From positions 10,381,220-10,445,219 of the forward strand of contig CM068839.1 of assembly GCA_028554795.2 (NCBI GenBank): a stretch of 64,000 nt of DNA, written 5' to 3'. Origin of the DNA: Sinohyriopsis cumingii. Lineage: Eukaryota > Mollusca > Bivalvia > Unionida > Unionidae. The position numbers and the translations under genes were made by a program. The notes beneath the pieces are model-generated. The model worked only from the letters and a program-made list of their open reading frames with translations. It did not search any database and was not told the origin of the DNA. Below, in pieces: positions 46,450 through 64,000 of this stretch; positions within the stretch are counted from its first letter, which is position 1, and the number at the start of each line of letters is the position of its first letter.

Positions 46450-46487
46450 TCTCTTTTCGAGAAATATGACTGGCCCTGAAAAGGGCC
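46450..46487 (-). terminator. Histone-type 3' stem-loop with downstream element (minus strand)
   Basis: On the minus strand CCAAA is followed by GGCCCTTTTCAGGGCC (46487-46472), giving a 6-bp stem and TTTC loop. Then comes AGTCA, and CTCGAAAAGAGA at 46461-46450. It lies about 23 bp past the stop of the small basic gene. The sequence is the metazoan replication-dependent histone mRNA terminator pattern, bound by SLBP and cut with U7 snRNP pairing to the purine-rich element. Confidence 0.82.
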
Positions 46488-46509
46488 TTTGGTTTATGTT
46501 AATATGCCC

Positions 46510-46740
46510 TTAACATAAAGGGCATTTGCGACATCTTCTTTTCCTCAAACTTCGTCTTACAGCAGGGCCATACATCAGAGTCCTTTTGAGGCAACCTTGT
46601 CTCTCTATATAGACTCTTCTTATCCACAGGCTGCTGTTGGTCCTGTGGACAACGGTCCACTTGGATCGGACATACATGAGCATGTCCGTCCTGAACATCA
46701 TTGTTGACACAAGGGTTGAAGATTCAACGTCTGTCCACAT
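46510..46740 (-). CDS. Small basic terminal protein
   Basis: A 76-residue protein of unknown function at the left end of the element. The N-terminal half (MWTDVESSTLVSTMMFRTDM) is shared with the homologue at 27110-27349 in the older copy. The C-terminus is strongly basic (RRSLRKRRCRK) and ends CRKCPLC, three Cys spaced x2. There is no signal peptide or membrane segment. The start is the ATG at 46740, about 50 bp downstream of a minus-strand TATAAATA (about 46789-46798). A histone-type stem-loop follows the stop, and no AATAAA is seen. It diverges from the Gln-rich gene with a shared upstream region. It is not a histone by sequence. A DNA- or RNA-binding or regulatory role is only a guess from charge. 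Confidence 0.7.
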   Translation of the reverse strand: MWTDVESSTLVSTMMFRTDMLMYVRSKWTVVHRTNSSLWIRRVYIERQGCLKRTLMYGPAVRRSLRKRRCRKCPLC

Positions 46741-46959
46741 GTTGAGGCTCCGAGAATAGGTGAATCAATGCAGTGAACGGCGCTTATTTATAGGGACAGG
46801 AAGGATTGAAACGGATTGAGTTCATTCACCAATCCGAACACGCGTTACAGAATTCAGTCAGCCCGCATCCAATCCGAAGAGAGTAGTCTGTGACGTCACG
46901 TAGTCTATATAGATTCGCTAGCGCTTGTGTGCAGTCAATCTATGCGACAGTGATTCAAC
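46741..46959. promoter_or_regulatory. Divergent promoter with CCAAT, CRE and TATA elements
   Basis: The region holds CCAATCCG at 46829-46836 and 46869-46876, and the inverse CGGATTG at 46812-46818, so the first pair forms a dyad. A consensus CRE, TGACGTCA, lies at 46891-46898. A plus-strand CTATATAG at about 46906-46913 is about 50 bp from the ATG at 46960. TATAAATA on the minus strand serves the other gene. The layout is conserved in the older copy at 27350-27577. Divergent pairs with CCAAT and TATA boxes are typical of metazoan histone genes. Confidence 0.75.
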
Positions 46960-47541
46960 ATGACGGAAACTCAGAAAACGATCCATTGGGGTGCACCAGC
47001 AGGGGAGACTGCCCAAGGGAACTCGGACTTACTTTCAGAAGAGGTGAATTGGGATTTTGTGGATTTTCTCTCCTCGCAAGAATTTGTTCCGGAACCTTCG
47101 TTACCTTCTTCATTACCGCAAGTGGAAAATTTTAGACAGAGACAGAAAGAAGAATTGGAGAAATTTATACAACGACAAAAGGAAGCGGAACAGGCTTTTC
47201 TCCTACAGCAACAGCAACAAGAAGAAGAGGTAAGAAAAAAACAACAGCAGCAACAGCAAGAAGAAGTAGCAGCAAAGAAACAAGAGGGTGAAAATCAAAC
47301 GGTCACGGTACTGTTGGACATTTTAGCGGAGTTAAGAAGTCTGAAACAAATGTATCAGACTTCTTTATCACGACCGAAGAGAATACGACCTTCCCGAGCT
47401 AAACACGTCAACCCTGTGACTAAGCCTACCGTACCACCCTTAGTGATTTCAACCCAATCATTATCATCATCAACATTACGCAGTCCAGAAGTAGGCCTTG
47501 GCCGTGGCAAAGGCATAAGGCAGTTAAAGTTGATTGCTTAA
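46960..47541 (+). CDS. Gln/Glu-rich coiled-coil protein
   Basis: 193 residues. Residues about 25-55 hold a WDFVDFLSSQEF segment, which looks like an acidic/aromatic activation-type patch. Residues about 60-115 form a highly charged Gln/Glu/Lys coiled coil with poly-Gln runs. A second Leu-rich heptad region (TVLLDILAELRSLKQMYQTS) follows near 120-140, and a basic Ser/Pro/Arg-rich tail ends the protein. It resembles bZIP-adaptor or scaffold proteins only in composition, and I do not recognise a family. The ATG at 46960 has a TATA box about 50 bp upstream. The gene ends 27 bp before a perfect histone-type stem-loop. Its homologue in the older copy is broken by an insertion. Confidence 0.8.
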   Translation: MTETQKTIHWGAPAGETAQGNSDLLSEEVNWDFVDFLSSQEFVPEPSLPSSLPQVENFRQRQKEELEKFIQRQKEAEQAFLLQQQQQEEEVRKKQQQQQQEEVAAKKQEGENQTVTVLLDILAELRSLKQMYQTSLSRPKRIRPSRAKHVNPVTKPTVPPLVISTQSLSSSTLRSPEVGLGRGKGIRQLKLIA

Positions 47542-47568
47542 ACTCACCCTTTCACCATGAAGAAAAAA

Positions 47569-47608
47569 GGCCCTTTTCAGGGCCACCCACATTTCTCGAA
47601 AAGAAATA
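47569..47608 (+). terminator. Histone-type 3' stem-loop with downstream element
   Basis: AAAAAA precedes GGCCCTTTTCAGGGCC (47569-47584), which is followed by ACCCA (47585-47589) and, after eight bases, GAAAAGAAAT (47598-47607). This matches the replication-dependent histone mRNA 3' end in stem, TTTC loop, A-rich 5' flank, ACCCA 3' flank and purine-rich downstream element. It is 27 bp past the stop of the Gln-rich gene. Confidence 0.88.
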
Positions 47609-47844
47609 CAATTTCAATTTGCCAATAACTCAAAAAAAAAAAAAAATAAACCCCACCCATTTTACCCTTATAGTACGTGTCTGTGTATGAGTGCGTGAGT
47701 GTACGTTCTTATTTTAAAATCAAAACTCAAAGACTCTTACCTTATATCATTCATTTATTCTTTTATCCATTTTTTACAATCCAATTCACAATTCACAACA
47801 CATCACTTTAATAAAAAGTTCATTGACTTCTTCTTTCTCCTTGT
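47609..47844. other. Convergent intergenic region
   Basis: Between the 3' ends of the Gln-rich gene and the zinc-knuckle gene. It contains poly-A and T-rich tracts. On the minus strand, no clear AATAAA is seen for the zinc-knuckle gene except TTTATT-containing sequence near 47755 (reverse AATAAA), which would lie about 90 bp past its stop. Confidence 0.45.
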
Positions 47845-48318
47845 TTAGTCTCTCTGTTTTTTGAATTTCTTCACCGTCTTTTCCTCATTTTCTTCCCTTC
47901 TTCTTTTCTTCTTCTCCTGTTTCTTTGCCTCTTGTAAATAGAATTGTCTTTTTTCTTCCTCTTCTTCCTCTGAAGAATCCCTCTCTTCTTTCGAAGAATC
48001 CCTCTCTTCTTCTGAAGAATCCCTCTTTTCTTCTGACTCCTCTTGTTTCTTTTTTGGGCAATCTGGAGACCAATGTCCTTTTTCTTTACAATAATAACAG
48101 GTATCTTGACTTTTGTCTTTTTTAGTCCCTGTTTTTGTTCTTTTTTGACGGTCTGGACACTCTGAAGACCAATGCCCTTTCTTCTGACAGATATAGCAAG
48201 TATCTTGACTTTTATCTCGAAAGGAAGGAGAGTAGTCTGTCGGCTGGTCTGAAGAGAATTTTCTAATGACCCCTCGCAAAGCTCTGACGAAACGTTCCAT
48301 CTGGTTAGTCTCTTCCAT
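47845..48318 (-). CDS. Two-zinc-knuckle (CCHC) nucleic-acid-binding protein
   Basis: 157 residues from the ATG at 48318. A longer frame exists upstream but would need a GTG start. Two zinc knuckles of the C-x2-C-x4-H-x4-C type lie at residues about 41-54 (CYICQKKGHWSSEC) and 74-87 (CYYCKEKGHWSPDC). Each is preceded by the same DKSQDT, so the knuckle was duplicated. The C-terminal half is an acidic Ser/Glu repeat (RDSSEEE three times) followed by a Lys/Arg-rich tail. Such knuckles bind single-stranded nucleic acid in retroviral nucleocapsids and cellular CNBP-like proteins. This is not a standard Polinton gene. TATATAAAAG (minus, about 48372-48383) lies about 55 bp upstream and is back to back with the PolB promoter. 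Confidence 0.82.
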   Translation of the reverse strand: MEETNQMERFVRALRGVIRKFSSDQPTDYSPSFRDKSQDTCYICQKKGHWSSECPDRQKRTKTGTKKDKSQDTCYYCKEKGHWSPDCPKKKQEESEEKRDSSEEERDSSKEERDSSEEEEEEKRQFYLQEAKKQEKKKRRREENEEKTVKKFKKQRD

Positions 48319-48365
48319 CGTTGTGCTCGGCTTGAGAGTGAAATGAATAGTGAAAGGATAAGACA

Positions 48366-48452
48366 CACACCCTTTTATATACGCTAGTCTGCCATGACTA
48401 TAAAGTAGTTTATGGTGTTTGAACTTGAGTCATTTGACTTTTTGCTTTCAAG
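48366..48452. promoter_or_regulatory. Back-to-back TATA promoters for zinc-knuckle and PolB genes
   Basis: A minus-strand TATATAAAAGG (about 48372-48383) and a plus-strand CTATAAAG (48398-48405) lie about 25 bp apart. Each is 45-60 bp from its gene's ATG, the spacing expected for a TATA box and a short leader. Confidence 0.7.
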
Positions 48453-51400
48453 ATGAAACGATCTAATTCGTTCGAGAAGAAAGAAGAAGAAGAAGAAAGA
48501 AGTAAGAGGCAGAAACGTGATCTATCGCCTCGTACCAGGGCTGAAATCTTGGCACAAATTCATGCCAGTGATTTTGAAGAGGACATGAGTGAACCAGAAT
48601 TTGAAACCTCTAAACCAAGTTCACCACCCTTAGTCAACCCTGAAAAATACTATTCCATTCGAGAGACGGAAAAGCGCTCCTCTAGAAAATTTAGAACCAC
48701 GGCTTACAAATACACGGTGAAGTTTAAAGATTTCAAGTCCGAAGTACCGTTAGAGAAAGCAGAAGGGTTCATCACCGGAGTGTGGGATTCTCTGCTCACT
48801 GCACTCAAGCGACAATGTCAACCCAAAGAAGACGATCGCTTGAGACTTTCCATACAACACGACGGTCTGAAATCCCCTGTTTGGATCGAGTTTAGCACCC
48901 CTGCAGAATTGACCGCTTCCAAAGTCATGGACAAGATTCAACATGTGCAACAATCTAATGACCAGTTTGACATCACCGATGGAAAAGCCACATTGGACAT
49001 GACCCACGTCTCTCCTCCTCAAGGGACCGGACGCAAAAAGATGTTATTGGTGAACGACCTTCGCAGCATTAAGCGTAGCCTTGTCCAAATTCACAATCCT
49101 CATGACCAGATGTGTTTAGCCCGTGCCATCGTGGTGGGACGAACCTATGCCAACAAGAACGACACAGTAGAATGGAAAAGAACCTGGAAAACTATTCAAC
49201 AATCCGACCGAGCCAAACAACGAAATGAAGCAGAACTCCTGTTGCAACAAGCTGGCCTGTCCAAAGACACACCCTGTGGCATTCCTGAGATGCAAAAATT
49301 GCAAGATGCCCTAGCTCCACGATACACCTTGAAAGTGCACCCTCAAGAAGTGCGCGGGTCTTTGTTGTTTCGAGGCCAAGAATTTAAGGACGGAAAATAC
49401 ATTCATGTCTGTTATAACGATGGCCATTTCGATACCATTACCAGTATCACTGGATTCCTAGGATACGGTTATTATTGTGAGAAATGTGATTATGGTTATA
49501 ACAATCGAGAGCAACACAAGCATTGTGGATCGAAATGCCCAGGATGTTTGGCCTCTCCACCCTGTCTGAGCGAAGAACCAGTGCCTTGTTCAACTTGTCT
49601 GCGCACGTTTGTCAGCCCTGCCTGTTACCAGCAACATTTGAAAACACAAGGTTCACAGAAGAAATGTGCTTGTCAACTCCTGAGATTGTGCCCTACGTGT
49701 GGACAAGGCATACTTACCAACAATGCCAAGGCACACGTATGTCGAGGAAAGAAAAAATGTCACATTTGTCACCACATCGTGGACTTGGAACACCAATGCT
49801 ACGTGCAAAAATACCAACCCCCACCAGAGAAAGAGGACGGTCACAAGAAGAAAGGCAATTTCATCTTTTTCGATTTCGAATGCATGCAAGAGACTGGCAT
49901 TCACATCCCTAATTTCTGCGTGGCTCATCGAGCGTGCGAGAAGTGCATTCAAGAACCTATCTTCAGTCATTGCCCTCACTGCAGCAAGATTCCTGGAGGA
50001 CGTGAAAAAATCTTTCGGGGACCGAACACGCTAGCTGATTTTGCCCAATGGGTCTTAGACCCCATCGACAAGACGTGGAGCCAAGAGGACATCGAACGTT
50101 ACGGAGATTGTCATCGTCATGCCACGGTGATGGCTCACAATTTCTCCGGATACGATGGACAGTTTCTTTTGAGATACTATACGGAACATGGCACCGAGCG
50201 TCCTAAAGTGACTTTGAACGGAGCCAAAATCATTTTCATGCAAGTGGGACAAGTGCAGTTTAAAGATTCGATGAGTTACTTGGCCATGCCTTTGAGTCGA
50301 ATGCCTAAAACGTTTGGAATGACAGAAATGGCTAAAGGGTACTTTCCACACTTTTTCAATACGGAAGCCAATCAACACGCCGTTCTACCCCATTTGCCTG
50401 AGGCTCACTATTATGACCCCGACAACATGCGTACCGAACAACGAGAAGCTTTCTACGCTTGGTACCAGGCTCACGCCTCGGACCCTTTCGACTTTCAGGA
50501 AGAAATGCTAAAGTATTGTCGTTCCGACGTGGACATTTTACGGCGTTGCTGTGGAAAATTTCGAGAACTGTTCATGGAACACGGAGGGGTCGATCCTTTG
50601 AAAGAAGCTTGCACCATTGCCAAAGCGTGTTCCTTAGTGTATCGACAACGATTCATGCCTGAAAACACCGTGGCTGTCATCAGCCCTCAAACGACCCACT
50701 ATGTCAAACGTCAATACTCGGTCAAAGCCCTACGCTGGTTACATTACTTGTGCGACAAGGAAGACAAGTGGATTCAGCATGCCCGCAACGGAGGGGGCGA
50801 AAAGACCATCGGAACGTATTCGGTCGATGGCTGGGACTTAGAAAACCCCAAGATCGTGTACGAGTTTAACGGTTGCTTATTTCACGGATGTCCCGTCTGT
50901 TACCCTGACCGTGGCACTAAAAATCAGTTTTTACAACGAACCATGGAAGACCTGTACCAGGACACTTGTCAGCGACGCCTAAAGTTAGAACAGGAAGGAT
51001 ACCAAGTGGTGGAAATGTGGGAACACGAGTACGATCACCGTATGAAAACCGATCCCGAGTTTAAACGCCTCGTGGAAAGTTACCAGTTCATGGACCCGCT
51101 GAACCCGAGGGATAGTTTGTACGGAGGAAGGACCAATGCCACCTGTTTGCTGTACCAAGCCGACGAAGAGAAAGGAGAAGAAATCAAATACTTGGACGTG
51201 TGTTCGCTGTATCCCTACGTGTGCAAATATTGTCGCTTTCCTGTAGGGCACCCGCAATTGTTAACGGAACACATCGACCTGAAAAACATTCGACAATACG
51301 AAGGCTTGATCAAGTGTAAAGTTTTGCCTCCCACGAACCTATACCATCCCGTCTTACCTCACCATTGTCAAGGCAAACTAATGTTTCCATTGTGCCGTAC

Positions 51401-52510
51401 TTGTGCCGAAACGTGCAACCAAGACCAGCCTTGTCAGCACACCCAAGAAGAACGGGCCTTGACGGGAACCTGGGTCAGCGTAGAATTGTTCAAAGCTCTG
51501 GACATGGGATACCAACTGTTAGAAGTGTACGAAATTTGCCACTTTCCCAAGACACAACAATACCGCAAGGGTGACCCCAGTCAGAAAGGCATTTTCGCCG
51601 ACTACGTGGATGCCTTTTTGAAACTGAAGCAAGAAGCCAGCGGCTATCCTTCCTGGTGTCACACTCCCGAAGACTAAATAAAATTCAAAGAGAAATACTA
51701 CGAACAAGAAGGCATCACTTTAGACCACATCGAGAAAAACGAAGGCAGGCGATCGTTTGCCAAAGTGATGTTAAATTGCTTGTGGGGTAAAATGGCACAA
51801 CGACCATGTTTACCCAAGACGGAATATTTGACAGAACCTTCCCGCTACTTCCAGATGATTCACGACAAAACCAAATACATGAAACACGTGGACGTCGTTC
51901 GAGAGAATTTGATCTTGGTCAATTACGAAGAAGATCTGGACTTTGTACAAGACGACCCTTTTGGAAATGTCATCATTGCGGCTTACGTGACAGCTCATGC
52001 TCGCTTAAAATTGTACGAAGCTTTAGAACTGTTAGAAGAACGCGTCCTGTACTTTGACACGGACAGCTGCATTTACATCCATCACCCGATTCAACATCAC
52101 CCTAACATCGAAGGAGACCGTTTAGGAGCTGGACAGACGAGCATCCCGACGACAAGATTCTAAGTTTCGTCAGTGGCGGTCCCAAAAATTACGGCTACGA
52201 ATACCGGGACAAACAAGGAGAAGTGCACACGACGTGCAAAGTGAAAGGACTGACTCTGAATTATCGTACCAGTCGAGTGGTCAACTTTGGGGTATTGAAA
52301 GAAGCCTTGCAATCGGGAGAGGATGGAAACTTTAAAGTGACCACTTACCAACCGAACAAGATTGTACGTTTACCCACTCCCCACATCGTCAGTCGACCTT
52401 TGGAAAAAGTCTATCAAATTGTATACCAGAAGCGAGTTCGACTTCCCAATCATTTCACCTTACCGTACGGTCACGTCGGTATTGGTCTGTATATAAAAAA
52501 GGAACCCTAG
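48453..52510 (+). pseudogene. Protein-primed family B DNA polymerase (two lesions)
   Basis: Replicates the element DNA from a protein primer. The N-terminal ~460 residues contain a conserved basic region and a Cys/His-rich cluster (residues about 345-455). Exonuclease motifs are FFDFEC (about 471), AHNFSGYD (about 563) and YCRSDVDILRR (about 688). A GCLFHGCPVCYP block (about 810) is typical of Polinton polymerases. Palm motifs are A, DVCSLYP (about 914); B, KVMLNCLWGK (about 1103); and C, DTDS (about 1200). The reading frame is interrupted by a TAA at 51675-51677, where the older copy has CAA, and by a one-base length change near 52125-52130. Coding resumes in another frame to the TAG at 52508-52510. 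Motifs B and C lie beyond the stop, so no full enzyme is made without readthrough. An assembly error is possible. Confidence 0.93.
52487..52497 (+). promoter_or_regulatory. TATA box for the BIR gene
   Basis: TATATAAAAA lies inside the last codons of PolB, about 65 bp before the BIR gene ATG. The gene therefore has its own promoter overlapping the preceding coding region. Confidence 0.6.
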
Positions 52511-52555
52511 GCAAGATCGATAGTTCATTGTGACTACCAAGACCGAGCGAACAAG

Positions 52556-53194
52556 ATGAATACTTTCAGAGAAACACAGAACAAGTTGTTTAGAAGGGCA
52601 CAATTCAAGTGTGAGGCTTCGGAAGTGGAATGCGATTGTGAGCCTTGCGATGGGTACGATGCTGTACCTTGTGACCTGAGCGATGCCGTAAAGCATCATG
52701 GGAACTTTAGTCCCCCTACCCCTATCATGGAAAGTGATGCTGTGCGTGTCAAACCTGTGGGATGCGAAAGTGATGCCGCTCGTCCTCTTGGACATTTTAC
52801 TGGGTTTCGTTTTAAAGGGGAATGTTCACCTTCACGTCTACCCCCCTACGGATGTCATCCAGCCCTGAGCAAACTCCTGCCCATGTCACTCAACCCTCAT
52901 CGAAACGAACCTGTGAAAAACGAATATTCGTTTCCTGTGCGTTTGTCGGAATACTGCGACTTTGAGAATCGTCTTCAATCTTTCAAAGGAAAATGGCCTA
53001 AGTATCTGGGAGGACCGACCCCCGAAGAATTAGCCAGAGCCGGATTTTTCTACTTGGGCGAAGGAGATAAAGTCAAGTGCTTCAGTTGCGGTGTGTCACT
53101 TCACCACTGGGAACCGCAAGATTCGGCCTACGTTGAACATGCTCGATGGTCACCGAATTGTCATTACTTACCCTTAGTGGGACCGAGACATTGA
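52556..53194 (+). CDS. Single-BIR IAP-like protein
   Basis: 212 residues. Residues about 125-206 form a BIR domain: an N-terminal FPVRLSEYCDFENRLQSFK, then W-P, LARAGFFYLGEGDKVKCFSC, HW, and EHARWSPNC. The zinc ligands are C175, C178, H195 and C202. BIR domains bind caspases or IAP antagonists, and large DNA viruses use them to delay host-cell death. No RING domain follows, so it would not be a ubiquitin ligase by itself. The first 120 residues are Cys-rich and unrecognised. It lies between PolB and the F-box-like genes, in the same orientation. A degraded homologue lies at 33946-34475 of the older copy, so the acquisition predates the split of the copies. Apoptosis inhibition is an inference from the family. 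Confidence 0.85.
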   Translation: MNTFRETQNKLFRRAQFKCEASEVECDCEPCDGYDAVPCDLSDAVKHHGNFSPPTPIMESDAVRVKPVGCESDAARPLGHFTGFRFKGECSPSRLPPYGCHPALSKLLPMSLNPHRNEPVKNEYSFPVRLSEYCDFENRLQSFKGKWPKYLGGPTPEELARAGFFYLGEGDKVKCFSCGVSLHHWEPQDSAYVEHARWSPNCHYLPLVGPRH

Positions 53195-53222
53195 AGTAAC
53201 TTCTTACCATAATAATCTGTTC

Positions 53223-53678
53223 ATGGATACTTTACAAGAGAACATTCGTGCTTTGCCTGTGGAGTTGAGAGAACGCATTTACCGAGAGCTGGTCAAAATA
53301 CAAGTGAAACGTAAAGAACAATTGCATCCGTTACGTCACCGGTGTTTGAACCACTGGTACCTGAAGGCTATACAAGGATTGATTCAATTGAAAGTGTTCC
53401 ATCGGACAGACATTGATCAACGATCCTCTAGTTTTAAAAAGGATTGGTTTGGTATGGACGATTGTAGTTACATCATTGTAAACGTACTGCATCGAATTCC
53501 AGAGGAAGAGTTAACGAATTACCAACATCTTGAACACAATGTCAACTTAGTGAAAGAGGAAACTTCTGAACGAATTGTAATGTGTAGATTAGTGACTCAA
53601 CGATTTAAATTCGACACTGAAGTGAAACCATGTTTGTGCAAAGAGTACATTTCTTGTGTCAGACCAAAGAGGATTTAG
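53223..53678 (+). CDS. F-box-like small protein, paralogue 1
   Basis: 151 residues. The N-terminus contains NIRALPVELRERIYRELVKI, whose LP-x-E-L-R-x-R-I-Y-x-x-L pattern resembles F-box or F-box-like domains that recruit SCF ubiquitin ligases. The match is to the first helix only, so the assignment is weak. Residues 50-150 are unrecognised. The first 120 bp are almost identical to the start of the next gene (53691), after which the two diverge sharply. Starts at the ATG 29 bp after the BIR gene stop. Confidence 0.65.
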   Translation: MDTLQENIRALPVELRERIYRELVKIQVKRKEQLHPLRHRCLNHWYLKAIQGLIQLKVFHRTDIDQRSSSFKKDWFGMDDCSYIIVNVLHRIPEEELTNYQHLEHNVNLVKEETSERIVMCRLVTQRFKFDTEVKPCLCKEYISCVRPKRI

Positions 53679-53690
53679 TATGACCGATTC

Positions 53691-54209
53691 ATGGATACTT
53701 TGCTAGAGAACATTCGTGCTTTGCCTGTGGAGTTGAGAGAACGCATTTACCGAGAGCTGGTCAAAATACAAGTGAAACGTAAAGAACAATTGCATCCGTT
53801 ACGTCACCAGATCTTTAACCACTGGTACCTGAAGGGTATAAGAGAACTGATTCGTCAGAAATTGTTTCAGTGGTCAGACCTTGTTCAATACTTCCAGGCC
53901 CCCGATGATTCACGTGTTGATCATTTTGGTTACTTCGAGATTCACCTAGAGCAACCCATTGAGGAAGACGAGGTAAAGGATTACCAACATATTTTCCGTG
54001 GAATCTACTTAGCGGAAGAGGAAACTTCTAATCGAACTCTGACGTTTCGGTTACAGTATGCAAGATTTACATTACCCACTGGAAAACGAAGATCTCTGGC
54101 TAGAAAGTACGTGTATTCTTTTCGAAACAAAGAGACTATAAAAACAGGCAGCTATGCCACGACTTATGTCGTATGTCATCCAACAGATTCCGTGGAAGGA
54201 ACTCAATGA
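53691..54209 (+). CDS. F-box-like small protein, paralogue 2
   Basis: 172 residues. It shares residues 1-42 almost exactly with the protein at 53223-53678, including LPVELRERIYREL, and keeps a lower similarity afterwards (a PIEEDEVKDYQH segment against PEEELTNYQH). Starts 13 bp after the stop of paralogue 1. Its 3' end overlaps the start of the next gene by 56 bp, and a TATAAAAA box for a downstream gene lies within it (about 54138). Only one such gene exists in the older copy. Confidence 0.65.
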   Translation: MDTLLENIRALPVELRERIYRELVKIQVKRKEQLHPLRHQIFNHWYLKGIRELIRQKLFQWSDLVQYFQAPDDSRVDHFGYFEIHLEQPIEEDEVKDYQHIFRGIYLAEEETSNRTLTFRLQYARFTLPTGKRRSLARKYVYSFRNKETIKTGSYATTYVVCHPTDSVEGTQ

Positions 54210-54710: not shown

Positions 54711-54918
54711 AAGGTCATTCCGGGAGGACACTTGTGTGACAATACCTCATGTAGAGACTGTAAGAACATTACACACTGTCCCTAGGACATCTTGGTTACC
54801 CAAAGCATGTTGTACAGACACTTGTTTATATTCCACTTTGATCGCTTTGCTGTGTTTTATATTCCTGTACATCACTATTTGGGTTGTATGTATTTTTGTC
54901 TTTCGTGTTCATATTTGA
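54589..54918 (+). CDS. C-terminal membrane-anchored protein
   Basis: 109 residues from the ATG conserved in both copies (54589; 35361 in the older). An in-frame ATG at 54532 is an alternative. The N-terminal 80 residues are hydrophilic and conserved (RKKVTFQPVLVTVPEEP; ETVRTLHTVPRTSWLPK). A CCTDTC cluster precedes a C-terminal hydrophobic segment of about 22 residues (ALLCFIFLYITIWVVCIFVF), so it looks tail-anchored. AATAAA follows at 54926. The first part overlaps the CxxC gene in another frame. Function unknown. Confidence 0.65.
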   Translation: MHKSCSRKKVTFQPVLVTVPEEPVTENNHSLQDRTVMDIPERSFREDTCVTIPHVETVRTLHTVPRTSWLPKACCTDTCLYSTLIALLCFIFLYITIWVVCIFVFRVHI

Positions 54919-55001: not shown

Positions 55002-55745
55002 ATGGCTACCTCTGCTGTCTCTGCTCCCTCTTCCTCTACTGTCAAAGTCATCGACGAGCACTTAGATCGTGCCAGTTGGGAGGCTTTGTATCTTCGCCAT
55101 CCCTTTAACATGCTCATTGCTGGACCTAGCGGTTCAGGCAAAACCGAATTCGTCAAACGTTTGATCGAACATAAACATCATTTGATCGATCGGCCCCCTC
55201 AACGGATCGTGTGGTGTTACAAAGAGTGGCAATCGGCGTGCAGCCTCTTGCGAGAAAGTCAAGGCGATTCCATCGTGTTTGTGGAAGGCATTCCTAAAGA
55301 AGACGACGGCATCGTCTCTGACTCCCGTCAAACCCATTTGGTCATTTTCGACGACATGTTAGGAGAAGACGAAGAAGAAATTAAATTGTGGTTCACGCGC
55401 AAAGGGCATCACCGTAATGCCAGTGTCGTTTACATCACCCAAAATTTGTTTCAACAAAGTAAAGCCCATCGCACCATCAGTCTCAATGCGCATTACGTGG
55501 TCTTGTTTAAAAGCCCTCGAGATAAATCGCAAGTGCAAGTCTTAGCCAAACAGTTAGGAACGCCTTGGTTGACTCAGGCGTACGACGATGCCACTCAAAC
55601 ACCACACGCCTATTTACTCGTCGATTTGAAACCTACGACCCCCGAGGATTTGCGATTTCGTACCCACTTGTTTCACCACTGGTGCCAAGACGGAGGGCCT
55701 GTCCTGTACACGTCTCCGTCCTCGACTTCATTTCACTCCCCATGA
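55002..55745 (+). CDS. Virion genome-packaging ATPase (FtsK/HerA type, A32-like)
   Basis: 247 residues. Pumps the element genome into the capsid in related viruses. Walker A is GPSGSGKT (residues 41-48). Walker B is HLVIFDDML (about 112-120, with DD at 117-118). YITQNLF near 144-150 is the sensor region. Length is normal for Polinton packaging ATPases. The start is taken as the ATG at 55002, which begins MATSAVSAPSS and is conserved in the older copy. The reading frame is open a little upstream without a better ATG. Confidence 0.92.
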   Translation: MATSAVSAPSSSTVKVIDEHLDRASWEALYLRHPFNMLIAGPSGSGKTEFVKRLIEHKHHLIDRPPQRIVWCYKEWQSACSLLRESQGDSIVFVEGIPKEDDGIVSDSRQTHLVIFDDMLGEDEEEIKLWFTRKGHHRNASVVYITQNLFQQSKAHRTISLNAHYVVLFKSPRDKSQVQVLAKQLGTPWLTQAYDDATQTPHAYLLVDLKPTTPEDLRFRTHLFHHWCQDGGPVLYTSPSSTSFHSP

Positions 55746-55763: not shown

Positions 55764-55801
55764 CCTCAGACCCTTTTTCGTCTGTCTCACACAGTGTGAA
55801 C

Positions 55802-57864: not shown

Positions 57865-57884
57865 CACACCAACCAACACAAAAA

Positions 57885-58997
57885 ATGGAAAAAGTGTTAG
57901 CCAGCATTTACTACGATCCCTCGCATCCTGCAGGTTACGCAGGAGTTCAAAAATTGTATCGTGCTGCCAAAACGCGACTGAAAAGTCTCCGTTTACCTCA
58001 AGTGCAACGATGGTTACAAGAACAAGCTACCTACACTTTACACAAACCCATTCGACGCAAGTTTGCCAGAAGTCGCACCCGAGTGGAAGGCATCGATCAT
58101 CAATGGCAAGCCGATTTAGCCGATGTCTCTCATTTGGCCAGCTACAATCGTGGCTACAAATATTTGTTTTGTGTCATCGACGTCTTTTCCAAATTTGCCT
58201 GGGTCGTGCCCTTGACTTCCAAATCGAGCAGCGAGTTAGTGCGAGCCTTACAACGGGTGCTGAAACAAAGCGGTCGTCACCCTCTTCGATGGCAAACGGA
58301 CAAAGGCACCGAATTTCTAAACCAAGCTTTCCAAAAAGAATTAAAGAAACGTGACATTCATTTTTTTACCACCGAGAATCCCGAAACCAAAGCCAGCATC
58401 GTGGAACGTTTTCAACGTACTTTGAAAGAACGCATGTGGAAATATTTTACGCATCACCACACTCTGAAGTACATCGACATCTTACCGCACCTGGTGCAAG
58501 CGTACAACCAATCTTACCATCGAAGCATCGGACGTGCCCCGCAAGACGTGACTCCCGACAGCGAAGTGCTGGTGTTTGAGCGCCTGTTCGGTACGTCCCC
58601 GACGAGGGCTGTCCCCAAGAAAAGTGGAGAGTTGGTCGTAGGAGATTGGGTGCGCATTGGCAAAACCAAACGCACTTTCGACAAAGGTTACTTACCTAAC
58701 TGGACGACCGAATTGTTTCGCGTCACTGGACGAGTGCATGGCCGTCATCCTGCCGTCTATAAATTGGAAGACATGAACGGAGAAGTACTCAAAGGAACGT
58801 TTTATTTGCCCGAGTTACAACGTGTCACCAAAAAAGAAGACGACGTGTACGACATCGAAAGCATTCTCGAAAGCAGAACCCGTAAAGTGGGCAAACGACG
58901 TGTCAAAGAAGTCAAAGTACGTTGGAAAGGATATTCACCCAGTTTCGATTCTTGGATCGACGCTTCGCAAGTCATCGACTATAAAAAGAAGAAGTGA
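57885..58997 (+). CDS. Retroviral-type DDE integrase with chromodomain
   Basis: 370 residues. Inserts the element DNA into the host genome. An N-terminal helical region is followed by the catalytic core: Asp in WQADLADV (about 77), Asp in QTDKGTEF (139) and Glu in SIVERFQ (174). Asp and Glu are about 35 residues apart, as in retroviral and Ty3-like integrases. Residues about 225-310 contain an SH3-like segment (VGDWVRIGKTK). Residues about 315-368 form a chromodomain (YDIESILESRTRKVG, then VKVRWKGYSPSFDSWIDA). Chromodomains bind histone tails and can direct insertion into chromatin. Starts at the ATG at 57885, 20 bp past the preceding stop. The full length appears intact. Confidence 0.95.
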   Translation: MEKVLASIYYDPSHPAGYAGVQKLYRAAKTRLKSLRLPQVQRWLQEQATYTLHKPIRRKFARSRTRVEGIDHQWQADLADVSHLASYNRGYKYLFCVIDVFSKFAWVVPLTSKSSSELVRALQRVLKQSGRHPLRWQTDKGTEFLNQAFQKELKKRDIHFFTTENPETKASIVERFQRTLKERMWKYFTHHHTLKYIDILPHLVQAYNQSYHRSIGRAPQDVTPDSEVLVFERLFGTSPTRAVPKKSGELVVGDWVRIGKTKRTFDKGYLPNWTTELFRVTGRVHGRHPAVYKLEDMNGEVLKGTFYLPELQRVTKKEDDVYDIESILESRTRKVGKRRVKEVKVRWKGYSPSFDSWIDASQVIDYKKKK

Positions 58998-59002
58998 CCA
59001 TC

Positions 59003-59419
59003 ATGCCCTTTCACACAGCAGACGCAGCTACGTCGACCAGTCCTTCTTCCCCTAGTTCTTCTGTGCAAGATTTACAAAAACAACCCTTGTGGGTGTGGTG
59101 TGGAGAACGTGTGCCTAAAACGCAAATCGTCTTTTTCTGCCAAATCTTCGTGGTGTACTGTGTCATCGGGGCAGCCATTGCCAATTTGAGTTTGCAACAA
59201 GGAGACAAACAATTGTGGACCATTTTATTGAGCAGTTGCATCGGTTACCTGCTTCCCAATCCCTCCCTGAAATTCTCCTCAAACGGGAACGTTGTGTCCA
59301 GTGCCAGTGTCAGTGCGAGTCACCAGTCCAACCACAATCAGAACCCCATTTTGGGCGGAGACACGCCTCTGACGTCCAGTAATATCCCCTCGGACAGCCA
59401 CAGAACTCTAGAATTATGA
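59003..59419 (+). CDS. Polinton double-hydrophobic membrane protein
   Basis: 138 residues. A conserved core LWVWCGERVPKTQIVFFCQI is followed by two hydrophobic stretches (about residues 43-62 and 72-88) and LLSSCIGYLLPNP. This pattern recurs between integrase and minor capsid genes in animal Polintons as I know them. The N- and C-terminal tails are Ser/Thr-rich. The stop TGA overlaps the ATG of the minor capsid gene (ATGA), so the two are translated from a tightly coupled region. Confidence 0.75.
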   Translation: MPFHTADAATSTSPSSPSSSVQDLQKQPLWVWCGERVPKTQIVFFCQIFVVYCVIGAAIANLSLQQGDKQLWTILLSSCIGYLLPNPSLKFSSNGNVVSSASVSASHQSNHNQNPILGGDTPLTSSNIPSDSHRTLEL

Positions 59420-60321: not shown

Positions 60322-60366
60322 AACTCCATTTTCGAAAACGGTTCTCTCACGATTCATAAGTAAGTC

Positions 60367-60783
60367 ATGTATCCAGTGTACCGAGGGGTTGCACGACAGC
60401 GAGGACACGGTTTAGGAGACATGTTAAAATCGGCCTTTCGTTCGGTGGCTCCGGTGTTGAAACCGATGGTGACACGCGGATTGCACGCCTTGAAAGATGC
60501 GGCACTGACGCAAGGCAAAGAATTTCTCCAAAATGTCATCATCGACAAACAAAACCCTAAAGAAGCCTTCATGAGGGCTGGCAAAAATGTCTTGCTGCAA
60601 ACGGGAAAAGACATTTTGGGCCGACGAGACACACCTATAAATGCCCTGCACGCTACCGAGTCAGGCATTCAGCAAGGACAAGGCAGAAAGAGACGACGAA
60701 GAAAACACCCTTTCACCAGACTTCAAGCTAGAAAGGCCAAGAAAAGAAGAACCGTTCGAGACTTAGACGTTTTCGATTATTGA
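60367..60783 (+). CDS. pVI-like membrane-active virion protein
   Basis: 138 residues. Begins MYPVYRGVARQRGHGLGDML, followed by an amphipathic helix region (FRSVAPVLKPMVTRGLHALK). It ends in a strongly basic region (GRKRRRRKH, KAKKRR) and RTVRDLDVFDY. The R-G-x2-x-Q-R-G-x-G-L-G N-terminus and overall layout match the Polinton/adintovirus proteins compared with adenovirus protein VI, an internal capsid protein that disrupts endosomal membranes. Placement between minor and major capsid genes agrees. Starts at the ATG at 60367. Confidence 0.75.
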   Translation: MYPVYRGVARQRGHGLGDMLKSAFRSVAPVLKPMVTRGLHALKDAALTQGKEFLQNVIIDKQNPKEAFMRAGKNVLLQTGKDILGRRDTPINALHATESGIQQGQGRKRRRRKHPFTRLQARKAKKRRTVRDLDVFDY

Positions 60784-60797
60784 GAAAGAGAAAAAAA

Positions 60798-62135
60798 ATG
60801 ATGCACCGAGAGTCTTGCGCTTGTTCCAAGACGGAACTGGATCTGTTTGCCATGCCCCCCACCATGATGACCATGCAAGAATCCCAGTGGGTGGAATTTC
60901 ACCCCGTCTCCTCACTGACCGATTCCGCTCCCATCGAGTTTGAAATCAAAGGACAGCCCGAAGATTACTTCGATCTGAATAGCAGTTACTTGTACTTGAA
61001 AGTCAAAGTTCTAGATAAGGGAGGAGATACTATAAACGGCGAAGAGAAAGTAGCTCCCGTCAACAATTTCATGCATTCCTTGTTCAGCTCAGTGGACTTG
61101 TACTTGAACAACAAACTGGTTAGCAGCAGCATGGATACTTACCCTTACCGTGCCTACCTGGAAAATCTCTTGACGTACGGAATAGATGCCAAGGATTCTC
61201 ATCTCAATGCCTGTGTGCTGTGGCAACCTGACGAAGCGGGCGAATTTAATGAAACAGGTCTTGAACCTGACCCCAAATCAAAAACAACCACCAATGAGGG
61301 ATTTGTAGAACGAAGAAACAGAATCAAAGATGGACAGAGTTTAGAACTGATGGATCGTTTGCATTTGGACATGTGGTTGCAAGAGAAATATTTGCTAAAC
61401 GGAGTGAATGTTCGCCTGAGACTGAATCGTAGCAGTGCCGCTTTCCATTTGTTGGCTGATGACAATGCTACTACTGGTGGCAATCCCAAAAACAAAATCG
61501 AGGAGGCCAAACTATACGTACGACGCGTAGAAGTGTTACCCAAAGTAGGTAACGACATCAGTCAAACGTTGAGCAGAACGACCGCCAAGTATCCCATCCG
61601 ACGTGTGGAAGTGAAAACGTTCACCATTTCCAAGGGACATCAATCCATGATCGAAGATCATCTGTTTCAAGGACAGTTACCCAAGCGTTTAATCCTTGGT
61701 ATGGTCATGAATTCAGCCTTCAACGGAACCTTCCTTGAAAATCCTTTCAACTTTCAACACTTCAACGTGAAGAAAATCGAAGTCAGTCGCGATGGCAAGA
61801 CCTTGTGTACCCGACCTTTCGAACCTGACTTTGCCAACAAAAATTACTTGAGATCGTACTTGTCCCTGTACGAAGCCACGGGACAGTTAGGAACCAACAC
61901 CAGTCACGGCATTACGTACGACGATTATGACGGAGGCTACGCTTTGTGGGCTTTCGATTTCACTCCAGACCAAGGCAGCGACGAGGGACATTTCCACCCT
62001 ATAAAATCCGGCCAGATTCGTGTGGAACTTCAGTTTGCAGATAAACTGAAAGAGACAGTGAACGTCATCCTGTATGCCGAATTCGATGATACCATAGAAA
62101 TCAACAGTTTGAGAGAAGTCATTCTAGATTATTAG
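60798..62135 (+). CDS. Major capsid protein (double jelly-roll, hexon-like)
   Basis: 445 residues. Forms the icosahedral shell of Polinton virions. Recognised by its position, length and conserved pieces: MTMQESQWVEFHPVSSLTDS, IEFEIKGQPEDYFDLNSSYL, SVDLYLNNKLVSSSMDTYPY, RLHLDMWLQEKYLLNGVNVR and GHFHPIKSGQIRVELQF near the end. All fit the Polinton major capsid family. Starts at tandem ATGs at 60798 and 60801. The open frame upstream is non-ATG. Fully open, unlike the older copy at 41504-42822. Confidence 0.93.
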   Translation: MMHRESCACSKTELDLFAMPPTMMTMQESQWVEFHPVSSLTDSAPIEFEIKGQPEDYFDLNSSYLYLKVKVLDKGGDTINGEEKVAPVNNFMHSLFSSVDLYLNNKLVSSSMDTYPYRAYLENLLTYGIDAKDSHLNACVLWQPDEAGEFNETGLEPDPKSKTTTNEGFVERRNRIKDGQSLELMDRLHLDMWLQEKYLLNGVNVRLRLNRSSAAFHLLADDNATTGGNPKNKIEEAKLYVRRVEVLPKVGNDISQTLSRTTAKYPIRRVEVKTFTISKGHQSMIEDHLFQGQLPKRLILGMVMNSAFNGTFLENPFNFQHFNVKKIEVSRDGKTLCTRPFEPDFANKNYLRSYLSLYEATGQLGTNTSHGITYDDYDGGYALWAFDFTPDQGSDEGHFHPIKSGQIRVELQFADKLKETVNVILYAEFDDTIEINSLREVILDY

Positions 62136-62140
62136 AAGCC

Positions 62141-62644
62141 ATGGAAGACTGTTATCCCTCTTTACCTAGTGGAGAAAGTTTGGAGATGGAATGTGAGGAG
62201 ACCGTGGAAGGAGAATCCCAAGACAAAGACGAAGAAGTTGTCATGATGAAGTCGAGATGGCCAGAACAAGAAGCCCATTTAGTCTCCTGTTTTGCCAAAC
62301 ACTTGGTCGACAAAATGACGGAATTGATCAAGAAAAATTGCTATGGATGTCAAAACGATCATCCCAGTCAAATTCAACACGATAAATGCCTGATGTTGAG
62401 TCAAGAAGAAAAATTGGACGAGTATCTGGACGAAGCTTGGAGTCTCATCTCGAACAAAGACGTGTTGCACCAGTGGTATAAAGACTTGCGTGAACATTCT
62501 TGTCCACCATTAACCACTCAAGAGATCCATCGTATCGAAGCTCTCCTGAATCAGAGTGAGGAAACAGAACGAATAACCGTTTATTCGTCAGACATTTTCA
62601 AGCAAAATTTCAGGATCGAATTGACAACGTATTATTACCTGTGA
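62141..62644 (+). CDS. Cys/His-motif (CYGCxxxHPSQ) protein
   Basis: 167 residues. An acidic N-terminus precedes a helical region and CYGCQNDHPSQIQHDKC (Cys67, Cys70, His74, His80, Cys83), which could bind zinc. The C-terminal third is charged and helical, and ends NFRIELTTYYYL. The C-Y-G-C-x3-H-P-S-Q-x2-H core is conserved in the older copy and is familiar from animal Polintons, where it has no agreed function. Starts 5 bp after the major capsid stop. Confidence 0.7.
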   Translation: MEDCYPSLPSGESLEMECEETVEGESQDKDEEVVMMKSRWPEQEAHLVSCFAKHLVDKMTELIKKNCYGCQNDHPSQIQHDKCLMLSQEEKLDEYLDEAWSLISNKDVLHQWYKDLREHSCPPLTTQEIHRIEALLNQSEETERITVYSSDIFKQNFRIELTTYYYL

Positions 62645-62669
62645 AGAAGAAAAAAACACACACAAATCA

Positions 62670-63230
62670 ATGGATACCTGGGAACTTTACTACCTTTTGA
62701 ACCACAGTTCGTATACGGCTTCTTGGAATCCTGTCGTCTGTGCTAAAGATGAACTCCCTCATCGCAAACCTAAAGACCATCAAGCTTACGTGATCAACAC
62801 GGACGACAGTCATCTCCCAGGAACCCACTGGGTAGCCGTCTACTTTCCTCAAGAAGGATGTGCGGAATATTTCGATTCGTACGGATTGCCCCCTTTGGAA
62901 GACGATATCATCGACTTTATGAGAAGAAATGCTCAAACCACCCGATTCAATAATGTGAAATTACAAGGCACAGATTCCTTGGTGTGCGGACAGTACTGCG
63001 TGTATTTTCTGCATCATCGCAGCCTGGGCTATTCCTTAGAACATTTAGTGACTCATTTCGATCCTCGTTCTTCTGCTAGAAACGATGTGAAAGTAGATCG
63101 ATGGTTTTGTGACCATTATGCTTATCTTTTGTCTCAAGCTAGGAAACGTAGTGTCCATCAATGGCCTAATGATTTCCAACAGTGGAAATCACAATTTCAT
63201 TCACAACGTTGTCAGCCCTGTTCAAAGTAG
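62670..63230 (+). CDS. Adenain-like cysteine protease (virion maturation)
   Basis: 186 residues. C48/Ulp1-like protease that cleaves virion proteins during maturation in adenovirus-like systems. The catalytic His is in GTHWVAVYF (His53), the acidic residue in YFDSYG (Asp69), the oxyanion Gln in LQGTD (Gln99) and the nucleophile Cys in LVCGQYC (Cys106). Gln-to-Cys spacing is 7, as in adenain. The length is close to the 200 residues of adenain. It is the last large gene, followed by AATAAA at 63344. Confidence 0.93.
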   Translation: MDTWELYYLLNHSSYTASWNPVVCAKDELPHRKPKDHQAYVINTDDSHLPGTHWVAVYFPQEGCAEYFDSYGLPPLEDDIIDFMRRNAQTTRFNNVKLQGTDSLVCGQYCVYFLHHRSLGYSLEHLVTHFDPRSSARNDVKVDRWFCDHYAYLLSQARKRSVHQWPNDFQQWKSQFHSQRCQPCSK

Positions 63231-63565
63231 ATTGTCTATTGAGAAAAAATGTTGGTGATTTGAAAAAAAATTGTTTGATGTTATAGTGTTGGATTATTGT
63301 TAAAAAATGTTAGAGTTGTTGTTTAGTGTTAAGTGATTTTTGAATAAAAAATGTTGTGTTTTGAAAAAATGTCTTTGTCTTTTGTTTAGGTAGAATAATG
63401 TTGGATTGATGCTCTTTGATTTCTTACTATCCCTCTCATGACACTCACTAAACGTTGCGGCTCGAAAACCGTGTGGGGATGTTTTCCTTCACGTCCGCGC
63501 TTTGACTTTAAGAACCGGGTTGTTTCCAGTCTAACCATCCATTGTCGACTCATCCTCCTACGAAG
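63231..63565. other. 3' flank of protease gene and upstream region of right-end gene
   Basis: T-rich with TGTTGTT-type repeats. AATAAA at 63344-63349 is followed by TGTTGTGTTTT, a standard cleavage/poly(A) context. GGGGATGTTTTCCTTCACGT and CCAGTCTAACCAT (about 63475-63540) are conserved with 44150-44210 and probably belong to the promoter of the next gene. A TATA box is unclear here, but the older copy has CATATAAAG. Confidence 0.6.
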
Positions 63566-63766
63566 ATGTGCTCCAAACTAAAGCTCAACGAAGCCTACGT
63601 GAATTTGCATAGGGTCAGACACAGTCTGATACCGAAGCCAGAAGAAATAGAGAATGTGAGAATGTTAAAAATCACTGAAGACCTGATAGAAGAGCTCTTC
63701 AGAGAAGAAATGAACAGGGAAAAAGAAGAATGGACAGAGAAGTACAGACTTCAGAGACAGCAGCAA

Positions 63767-63799
<33 letters not shown>

Positions 63800-63928
63800 C
63801 AACCTGAACCTGACAGAGGCTTTGTCGATTGTCGTATCGACACCAAAAAGTTCTTCTTCTCTTTCCGAAGAAGCAGACCTATCGCCAGAAAGTCTATCCT
63901 CAGAGGACATCGCATCCTTAGAAACTAA
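63566..63928 (+). CDS. Right-end Gln-rich protein
   Basis: 120 residues from the ATG at 63566 (MCSKLKLNEAYVNLHRVRHS). A charged helical region (KITEDLIEELFREEMNREKE) is followed by a poly-Gln run (about residues 70-87), then DCRIDTKKFFFSFRRSRP and a very basic C-terminus. Similar in style, though not clearly homologous, to the left-end Gln-rich protein. Its counterpart in the older copy is lost beyond about 44215. A histone-type stem-loop lies 30 bp past the stop. Function unknown. Confidence 0.7.
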
Positions 63929-63958
63929 AAAAAGAATGCCATAGCAAAACAAAAAAAC

Positions 63959-63998
63959 AGCCCTTTTCAGGGCTACCCAATACTCTAGAAAAGAAATA
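63959..63998 (+). terminator. Histone-type 3' stem-loop with downstream element (right end)
   Basis: AGCCCTTTTCAGGGCT (63959-63974) differs from the other stem-loops by a compensating pair change at the stem base (G-C to A-T). ACCCA (63975-63979) and, after a gap, CTAGAAAAGAAAT (about 63985-63997) follow. The paired change preserves the hairpin. Confidence 0.85.
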
Positions 63999-64000
63999 AC

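Follow-up and report, generated by a model that had tools for sequence, protein, structure and literature searches.

Histone-type 3' stem-loops at the terminal genes of an adintovirus-like Polinton

Known histone-type hairpins and the element under study

Metazoan replication-dependent histone mRNAs are processed at a hairpin, bound by SLBP, and at a downstream element, paired by U7. HCMV reportedly requires SLBP: like SARS-CoV-2 and potato spindle tuber viroid, it is a case of a virus or non-histone RNA with a tie to SLBP or to the loop of the histone hairpin. SLBP is described as binding the SARS-CoV-2 frameshift RNA (PMC12166091), and loop 27 of the viroid as equal to the loop of the histone hairpin (PMC6827988). 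There the two cases concern frameshifting, and replication and trafficking, respectively; genes of DNA viruses with histone-type 3' ends are not their subject. The extended stem, moreover, is missing from the viroid, for whose hosts no SLBP homologue has been reported (PMC6827988). The histone 3' end is presented as the one exception among eukaryotic mRNAs (PMC7026596), and no such end was found for Polintons or adintoviruses in the literature searched, including term searches of PMC11071296 and PMC11071308.

The element described here starts in a window of 64,000 nucleotides (the whole stretch of DNA analysed) and runs past its end, a complete Polinton spanning positions 46180 to 66143 (19,964 bp). 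It is an adintovirus-like Polinton: it shares with Polinton/Maverick elements and adintoviruses a B-family polymerase (PF03175, predicted to be of the protein-primed type), an rve-chromodomain integrase, a packaging ATPase of the A32 type, inverted repeats at the termini (roughly 316 bp, 98% alike) and a 6-bp target duplication, GACATC; it also has candidates for their double-jelly-roll capsid and adenovirus-type protease genes.

46174..46179, no strand: target-site duplication GACATC, left copy; the identical hexamer comes immediately after the right repeat
46180..46495, no strand: left terminal inverted repeat; inverted mirror copy at 65830-66143 (L009 2230-2543), 98% identical
47845..48318, minus: CCHC-like knuckle gene, named by eye from its motif; without stem-loop, AATAAA at 47759 (minus)
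48453..51677, plus: B-family DNA polymerase (PF03175, 1.4e-37); reading frame interrupted in this copy, continuing in part at 51768
52556..53194, plus: BIR-domain gene (PF00653, 9.5e-24)
55002..55745, plus: packaging ATPase, A32-like (PF04665, 8.2e-8)
57885..58997, plus: rve integrase with chromodomain (PF00665, 2e-14; PF00385, 2.9e-7)
60798..62135, plus: putative major capsid protein, 1095 homologs
62670..63230, plus: putative adenovirus-type protease (PF00770, E 0.0087, below cutoff); AATAAA downstream, at 63343

The product of the gene at 60798..62135, a candidate for the capsid protein, had no capsid match in the Pfam profile search; neither for it nor for terminal gene 2 were relatives confirmed in IMG/VR. 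Genome-wide, 40 matches to the terminal repeat were scored, 96-100% identical; as read from their coordinates, 30 of them form 15 opposed pairs, 13-23 kb apart.

Stem-loops and terminal genes

The Polinton carries five histone-type stem-loops, each of which follows a small terminal gene on its 3' side and is on the gene's own strand. These outermost genes, of which the left end has two and the right end three, are short and either divergent or in tandem. Two of the stem-loops sit within the terminal inverted repeats, one per repeat, and three outside them. An earlier note on this DNA had placed three hairpins in the window: all three are real and lie where it put them, while two more beyond the window bring the total to five. 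The position given for the minus-strand copy was also right, to which it may be added that this copy is inside the left repeat and is mirrored in the right one.

46447..46458, minus: GAAAAGAGATAG, the purine-rich downstream element 13 nt past the stem at the left-repeat gene
46472..46487, minus: stem-loop 1, within the left repeat; RF00032 34.1 bits, fold -11.4 kcal/mol
46510..46740, minus: terminal gene 1, 76 aa, basic (translation); stop 22 nt ahead of the stem-loop; 28 distinct 3' regions compared
46785..46792, minus: TATAAATA, a TATA box ahead of terminal gene 1, read in the sequence
46960..47541, plus: terminal gene 2, 193 aa, an ORF divergent to gene 1; 20 homologs
47569..47584, plus: stem-loop 2, then ACCCA; RF00032 41.2 bits, fold -11.4 kcal/mol
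47598..47609, plus: purine-rich downstream element GAAAAGAAATAC of gene 2, 13 nt past the stem
47645..47650, plus: AATAAA (motif scan), 61 nt beyond stem-loop 2, where it may serve as a fail-safe poly(A) signal
63566..63928, plus: terminal gene 3, 120 aa, Gln-rich (ORF and copies); stop 30 nt ahead of the stem-loop
63959..63974, plus: stem-loop 3, with an A-U outer pair, then ACCCA; RF00032 31.0 bits
63988..63999, plus: purine-rich downstream element GAAAAGAAATAA of gene 3, 13 nt past the stem
64821-64836 and 65838-65853, beyond the window: stem-loops 4 and 5; RF00032 31.0 and 30.6 bits

The terminal-gene hairpins have a 6 bp stem and a UUUC loop. Within the window, the details given earlier hold: the hairpins lie 20-30 bp past the stops (22 nt for gene 1, 27 for gene 2 and 30 for gene 3), two of them (genes 2 and 3) are followed by ACCCA, the purine-rich element keeps a nearly constant distance, starting 13 nt past the stem in all three, and the right-end copy features a compensating change, from G-C to A-U. 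The distance is 11 nt in the right-repeat copy of this Polinton. The ACCCA cleavage-type region is present at genes 2, 3 and 4 and degraded at both repeat-borne genes (AGTCA and CCATA), where it is found in a number of other Polinton copies.

The stem-loops were evaluated by RF00032, the Rfam Histone3 covariance model, for which the gathering cutoff is 34 bits. Two of the five score above it (47564-47608, plus, 41.2 bits, E 9.6e-9; 46447-46492, minus, 34.1 bits, E 4.2e-6), and three fall below, at 30.6-31.0 bits, among them the one at 63954-63999, plus (31.0 bits, E 6.4e-5). No match at E<=5 was found between 47609 and 63953: the inner genes are without a stem-loop of this type, and presumably use AATAAA. 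At the level of letters the enrichment in the window is only moderate, a pattern scan that allowed up to 3 mismatches finding 4 matches where 0.86 would be expected, a count reached in 1 of 100 shuffles; chance is excluded by the covariance-model E-values along with the genome-wide pattern.

These 3' ends resemble those of histone mRNAs (RF00032; SLBP, U7 snRNP, HDE) in stem-loop size and loop, in flanks of CCAAA/ACCCA type, with ACCCA intact at three of the five, and in the near-constant spacing of the purine-rich element; the gap from stop to stem is likewise short in four of the five genes, and uninterrupted reading frames and TATA boxes are further features in common with histone genes. 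The terminal genes differ from the latter in being part of a mobile, virus-like element, in that some have a downstream AATAAA and in that they match no core histone: tblastn with H2A, H2B, H3 and H4 gave no match at a cutoff of 1e-4 in L001-L009 and L040-L059, nor at 1e-2 in L067-L070. The AATAAA lies about 60 nt past the stem at two of the five genes, 2 and 3; for the repeat-borne genes 1 and 5, neither AATAAA nor ATTAAA occurs on their own strand from the stem to the element's end.

The description of these genes as unrelated stands only in part. Promoter blocks and 3' ends recur among the right-end genes, whose cassettes were therefore probably duplicated. At the last gene, where the stem-loop lies far from the stop, the frame may have changed in this copy, since a search with its protein gave two environmental homologs with longer C-termini. 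For terminal gene 2, an AlphaFold2 model of low pTM (0.25), with a long helix at 53-136, offered no functional lead.

Conservation in copies and diverged relatives

Fifty loci (L010-L059) were fetched, 30 collected by repeat identity and 20 by a strong stem-loop. They contain 104 strict stem-loops, of which 97 follow a same-strand terminal gene at a distance of no more than 300 nt; six of the remaining seven have a diverged same-strand match to gene 5 at 414-435 nt upstream, and L045 has none. The outer pair is G-C in 76 of the 104, A-U in 27 and G-U in one, both sides changing. All six pairs were present in 99 of 110 3' ends of terminal genes, ten had one defect and one (gene 3, L056) had no stem-loop, bearing in mind that many copies are near-identical and that both ends of one element are counted separately. 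Conservation at the repeat-borne genes 1 and 5 partly reflects selection of the loci, chosen by repeat identity or strong stem-loop. No selection for the hairpin applies to 13 gene-4 copies at or below 55% protein identity: 12 keep all six pairs and one has a single defect.

Among 3' ends with a stem-loop, the downstream core is located 13 nt past the stem in 27 of 27 cases for gene 2, 28 of 29 for gene 1 (one without the core), 7 of 9 for gene 3, 22 of 24 for gene 4 and 17 of 18 for gene 5. Mean pairwise identity is 0.955-1.0 for the hairpin, but 0.678-0.845 in the sequence immediately before it and only 0.400-0.739 from +61 to +100; 16-nt windows more conserved than the hairpin are 10 of 134 for gene 2, 5 of 134 for gene 3 and 7 of 134 for gene 4. 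For the downstream element identity is 0.88-0.98, except in gene 2, where a value of 0.858 is hardly above the flanks (0.818, 0.825). The ACCCA stretch scores 0.767 in gene 3, 0.81 in gene 1 and 0.833 in gene 5. Hairpin and spacing thus outlast the surrounding sequence.

A second Polinton, decayed and divergent, occupies about 27.1-44.2 kb of the window (about 27161-44210 by tblastn), with a capsid piece 51% identical. It keeps the stem-loop at gene 2, while its minus-strand hairpin retains the 5' arm only.

29984..29999, plus: stem-loop in the second, decayed Polinton; RF00032 28.7 bits, below gathering; one G-U pair

Attribution of this hairpin to a separate host gene was rejected, given its location in the decayed Polinton. 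P0133, an environmental homolog of gene 2, continues beyond the usual stop, and on back-translation its tail can accommodate 37 of the 40 nt that make up hairpin and element, compared with at most 33 in 5000 shuffles; the tail evidence comes from this one homolog, the other 19 being uninformative on the hairpin. Two distant animal Polinton contigs, found as contaminants in GTDB, gave no RF00032 match, and neither is shown to reach the element ends. In IMG/VR the exact stem-loop pattern occurs 0 times, and two looser patterns hit 2 and 3 contigs, all five judged chance; contig L066 has an RF00032 match below gathering (24.8 bits, E 0.011), with no ACCCA or spaced purine run by eye.

A histone-type 3' signal on terminal Polinton genes, the central claim of the earlier note, is strongly supported by the Rfam model, strand and position, the spaced element, the paired change, the many copies and the second, diverged element.

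Proposed processing and alternative readings

Most probably, the outermost genes use host 3' processing of SLBP/U7 type. Host SLBP would bind the hairpin, U7 snRNP would pair with the purine-rich element (GAAAAGARAT) and CPSF73 would cut just 3' of the stem; the products would be short, intronless, poly(A)-minus mRNAs, whose stability and translation would largely be confined to times when SLBP is available, as in S phase, in oocytes and in cleavage-stage embryos. It is from sequence that we infer this processing, the absence of poly(A) and the coupling to S phase. A profile search of the host genome for U7 (RF00066) returned no match, which does not show absence.

A single capture of a histone 3' end, followed by passive copying in gene-plus-UTR cassettes while the real ends lie at poly(A) signals, would fit the blocks repeated at the right end, the AATAAA past two of the hairpins and the single defects seen in some copies. 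Such a relic is unlikely, however: hairpin and spacing have outlasted their neighbourhood, the outer pair has changed on both sides, the repeat-borne genes are without a poly(A) signal past the stem, and the signal persists in another, diverged element and also, as judged by back-translation, in a single environmental homolog. Still less probable is a hairpin with another role, as a replication structure of the terminal repeats or a transcription terminator, histone-like by convergence: two of the five copies do lie inside the repeats, but the other three are outside and all are gene-sense, and loop, flanks and spaced purine element together fit the histone model. A GC-rich palindrome amplified in a recent transposon burst, already disfavoured, can hardly be entertained: the modest letter-level enrichment and the 96-100% likeness of copies from the repeat search are what such ascertainment would give, yet one element has the hairpin at five positions, with a best E of 9.6e-9, and diverged copies retain it.

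Host SLBP/U7-type processing of the terminal genes being preferred, a broader reading appears somewhat better than even: the short genes lining the ends may form a histone-mimicking module, expressed through host SLBP and U7 as S-phase- or embryo-restricted, poly(A)-minus non-histone mRNAs, which would couple regulatory genes to host DNA replication, the outermost ones having a repeat-borne stem-loop as their sole recognised 3' signal. That the terminal genes act early is suggested by position only.

Should a histone-type end prove usual on five genes of a multi-copy virus-like element, the "histones only" rule would be broken; there would be a clue to the timing of Polinton expression, whether in S phase, in the germline or in the early embryo, and the terminal genes might escape RNA-seq of poly(A)-selected libraries. 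On the 2.9-Gb genome, 75 RF00032 matches were scored and 24 were opened: all 24 are Polinton ends, so that in such a genome these matches are unsafe as markers of histone genes.

Extent of the intact element and its terminal signals

The intact Polinton is bounded by a pair of inverted repeats, both flanked by the six bases GACATC; the element therefore spans 46180-66143 (19,964 bp), with window numbering continued past the right end of the window. It contains a B-family polymerase, an rve integrase with a chromodomain, an A32-like ATPase, a BIR protein, a candidate capsid and a candidate protease, and an element with such a gene set is a Polinton, although here the polymerase reading frame is interrupted. 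A search at E <= 0.001 gave 1095 homologs of the capsid candidate: those named by organism, among the 120 listed, come from the molluscs Mercenaria, Crassostrea, Ostrea, Saccostrea and Littorina, plus one bacterial MAG label.

Features of the element. L009 is the locus that extends the sequence past the right end of the window; terminal genes 1 (minus strand) and 2 (plus strand) are at the left end, genes 3, 4 and 5 at the right end.
46180-46495: left terminal inverted repeat, 98% identical to the right copy
L009 2230-2543: right terminal inverted repeat, 98% identical to the left copy
L009 826-1191: gene 4, in tandem with gene 5, beyond the window
L009 1531-2079: gene 5 reading frame, in tandem with gene 4, beyond the window
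47759, minus strand: AATAAA, 3' of the CCHC gene
54926: AATAAA, 3' of the ORF ending at 54918
63343: AATAAA, 3' of the candidate protease gene

The BIR (inhibitor-of-apoptosis) domain gene lies within 52556-54209, followed by two similar tandem genes (53223-53678 and 53691-54209), in whose region 201 nt are repeated at 89% identity. The terminal repeat itself contains short direct repeats, 35-45 nt long (46217-46395).

Three hairpins had been claimed in the earlier note, at 46472-46487 (minus strand), 47569-47584 and 63959-63974, and all are found exactly there; the total per element, given there as three, is five, two signals lying beyond the window. Scores were obtained with RF00032, the Rfam covariance model of the histone 3' UTR stem-loop (gathering cutoff 34 bits).

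RF00032 matches of the five terminal genes.
46447-46492, minus strand: gene 1, 34.1 bits
47564-47608, plus strand: gene 2, 41.2 bits
63954-63999, plus strand: gene 3, 31.0 bits
L009 1221-1236: gene 4 stem-loop, 31.0 bits
L009 2238-2253: gene 5 stem-loop, 30.6 bits

For the three matches in the 64-kb window, E-values range from 9.6e-9 to 6.4e-5. Each of these hairpins has a 6-bp stem and a 4-nt loop, with predicted energies of -11.4, -11.4 and -9.0 kcal/mol for genes 2, 1 and 3; 4, 2 and 6 of 200 shuffles, in that order, fold equally well or better. Two signals, on divergent genes, are present at the left end and three at the right, the outermost at each end falling within the terminal inverted repeat. 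No RF00032 match was found for the remaining genes, between 47609 and 63953, in a whole-window scan at E <= 5.

Neither AATAAA nor ATTAAA occurs on the gene's own strand, between stem and element end, for the repeat-borne genes 1 and 5. AATAAA follows the stem at 61 nt in gene 2 (47645) and at 63 nt in gene 3 (64037); in gene 4 the first such motifs are farther off, ATTAAA (65057) and AATAAA (65217) lying about 220-380 nt past the stem.

The divergent layout of genes 1 and 2, together with the TATA-like boxes and CCAAT-like motifs recognized there by eye, resembles that of histone gene pairs. Between them (46740-46960) lie CCAATCCG-type motifs and one TATA-like box per gene. A promoter-like block, GGGGATGTTTTCC-TCACGTCCGCGC, is common to the right-end genes (63470-63510; L009 710-790 and 1480-1580), and in genes 4 and 5 a TATA-like motif comes after it; since the block is shared, it seems that cassettes of promoter, gene and 3' end have been duplicated as units. 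The first codons of the gene 5 frame run through this block, so its true start is likely L009 1630 rather than 1531. The stop of this frame is more than 150 nt 5' of the stem-loop in this element, and the relatives P0141 and P0142 have longer C-termini; the frame may be altered in this copy.

Conservation of the signal in the host genome

The element is present in many copies. A search of the host genome with the left repeat gave 5405 candidates, of which 40 were scored, all 96-100% identical; judged by eye from the coordinates, 30 of these 40 can be matched into 15 opposed pairs at distances of 13-23 kb. In the 2.9-Gb genome, 75 sites received an RF00032 score (589,472 first-look candidates). 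Of these, 24 were opened: the 20 best-scoring, each with 4 kb of flank on either side (L040-L059), and, as 601-base pieces, four from the bottom six (L067-L070). All 24 are Polinton ends. Histones H2A, H2B, H3 and H4 had no match in L001-L009 and L040-L059 at 1e-4, nor in L067-L070 at 1e-2.

The 50 loci L010-L059 contain 104 stem-loops fitting a strict pattern, which do not represent 104 independent elements, because certain elements contribute both of their ends as separate loci. Placement after the terminal ORFs of other copies, which the earlier note had proposed to look for, is the rule: 97 of the 104 follow a same-strand terminal gene by no more than 300 nt (28, 24, 7, 20 and 18 for genes 1 to 5). 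Six of the other seven are preceded, at 414-435 nt, by a diverged gene-5 match on the same strand; the last, at L045, has no such match, but occupies the expected right-repeat position.

Absence of the hairpins from other copies, which would have spoken against the claim, is the exception: all six pairs are present in 99 of 110 terminal-gene 3' ends (a count omitting rows from the window and duplicate L009 rows), ten have one defect and one has no stem-loop. The near-constant distance previously claimed for the purine-rich run 3' of the stem also holds, its core being mostly found 13 nt past the stem in all five genes.

Conservation of the 3' ends, by gene. Columns, in order: intact six-pair hairpins; core at 13 nt past the stem (rows with a recognisable stem-loop; gene 4 counts L045 twice, for two overlapping matches); distinct rows used for mean pairwise identity; identity of the 16-nt hairpin; of up to 25 nt upstream; of the ACCCA stretch; of the downstream element; of +61 to +100.
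Gene 1: 28/29; 28/29, one without core; 28; 0.996; 0.845; 0.81; 0.882; 0.400
Gene 2: 24/28; 27/27; 26; 0.971; 0.818; 0.97; 0.858; 0.739
Gene 3: 8/11; 7/9, two at 14; 11; 0.955; 0.831; 0.767; 0.983; 0.634
Gene 4: 21/24; 22/24, one at 14, one at 15; 24; 0.969; 0.678; 0.968; 0.934; 0.731
Gene 5: 18/18; 17/18, the exception (11) being the copy in the intact element itself; 18; 1.0; 0.685; 0.833; 0.945; 0.650

Windows of 16 nt more conserved than the hairpin number 10 of 134 for gene 2, 5 of 134 for gene 3 and 7 of 134 for gene 4. Among copies with protein identity of 55% or less, the hairpin is intact in 12 of 13 for gene 4, whose loci were picked independently of these hairpins, and in 13 of 13 for gene 5, where it lies within the repeat used to pick many loci. 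The outer base pair of the 104 strict stem-loops is G-C in 76, A-U in 27 and G-U in one; the other pairs are largely dictated by the pattern itself. In this Polinton family, then, the outermost genes systematically carry a real signal that is under constraint.

Proposed function and literature

In histone mRNAs, according to passages of PMC7026596 and PMC5011920, SLBP binds the hairpin, U7 snRNP pairs with a purine-rich element and the pre-mRNA is cut 4 or 5 nt past the stem. AAAGAG, found within the gene 1 purine element, is exactly complementary to the CUCUUU that is marked in mouse U7 in PMC7026596; genes 2 and 3 have AAAGAA in its place. By analogy, the terminal-gene hairpins would be bound by SLBP, the purine element would pair with U7 snRNP, and cleavage would fall 4 or 5 nt past the stem. 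Transcripts of the terminal genes would then be short mRNAs lacking poly(A), with stability and translation that would track SLBP; for this reason, expression would be expected in S phase, oogenesis or cleavage. These sequences are best explained by a signal that acts as a histone-type 3' end, which is quite probable; coupling of the element to S phase is a plausible consequence, somewhat favoured.

In the open-access papers searched, none was found joining histone stem-loop and Polinton, and papers touching Polinton, histone and stem-loop together include none on this subject by title and abstract start. Searches for the histone stem-loop with transposons, and for viral histone genes with stem-loop and polyadenylation, returned papers that, judged by their listing, are unrelated; among the SLBP-and-virus papers listed, none is, by title, about histone-type 3' ends on viral genes. 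HCMV reportedly requires SLBP. The novelty of histone-type ends on Polinton genes is likely but not proven: each part was already known, and the combination is new as far as the literature searches reach. By term search, the adintovirus survey PMC11071296 mentions a histone-like 'Histoid' gene in adomaviruses, and no stem-loop, hairpin or polyadenylation; PMC11071308 mentions neither histone nor stem-loop. Two further papers describe SLBP binding to a SARS-CoV-2 frameshift RNA (PMC12166091) and a viroid in which one loop matches that of the histone hairpin exactly (PMC6827988).

A second Polinton and more distant relatives

Of the 20 relatives of terminal gene 2 in the databases, P0133 is the sole informative case for a test of the sequence beyond the gene: it extends beyond the usual stop, with a tail that is compatible with 37 of 40 nt of the stem-loop and purine element (mean 24.9, maximum 33 in 5000 shuffles). 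Two contigs filed in GTDB as bacterial MAGs, under an Escarpia endosymbiont (L060) and Breoghania (L061), carry animal-type Polinton capsid genes, 41 and 43% identical, and ORFs resembling polymerase and integrase can be recognized by eye in L060; RF00032 has no match on these contigs, which, at 11.8 and 8.4 kb, may stop short of the element ends.

A second, decayed and divergent Polinton occupies about 27.1-44.2 kb of the window (27161-44210), about 2 kb to the left of the intact one. Compared with the latter, a capsid piece is 51% identical, another piece 41% and longer polymerase pieces 72-82%. Its gene-2 stem-loop is kept at 29984-29999, with one G-U pair, ACCCA and the purine element at 13 nt; of the gene-1 hairpin the 5' arm alone remains. 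Its right end passes, by eye, into a reverse-transcriptase-like element (ORF 44379-44894). Weak tblastn matches at 7343-7543 (41% to polymerase) and 9694-9897 (37% to the CCHC protein) hint at further old fragments of Polintons or other mobile elements.
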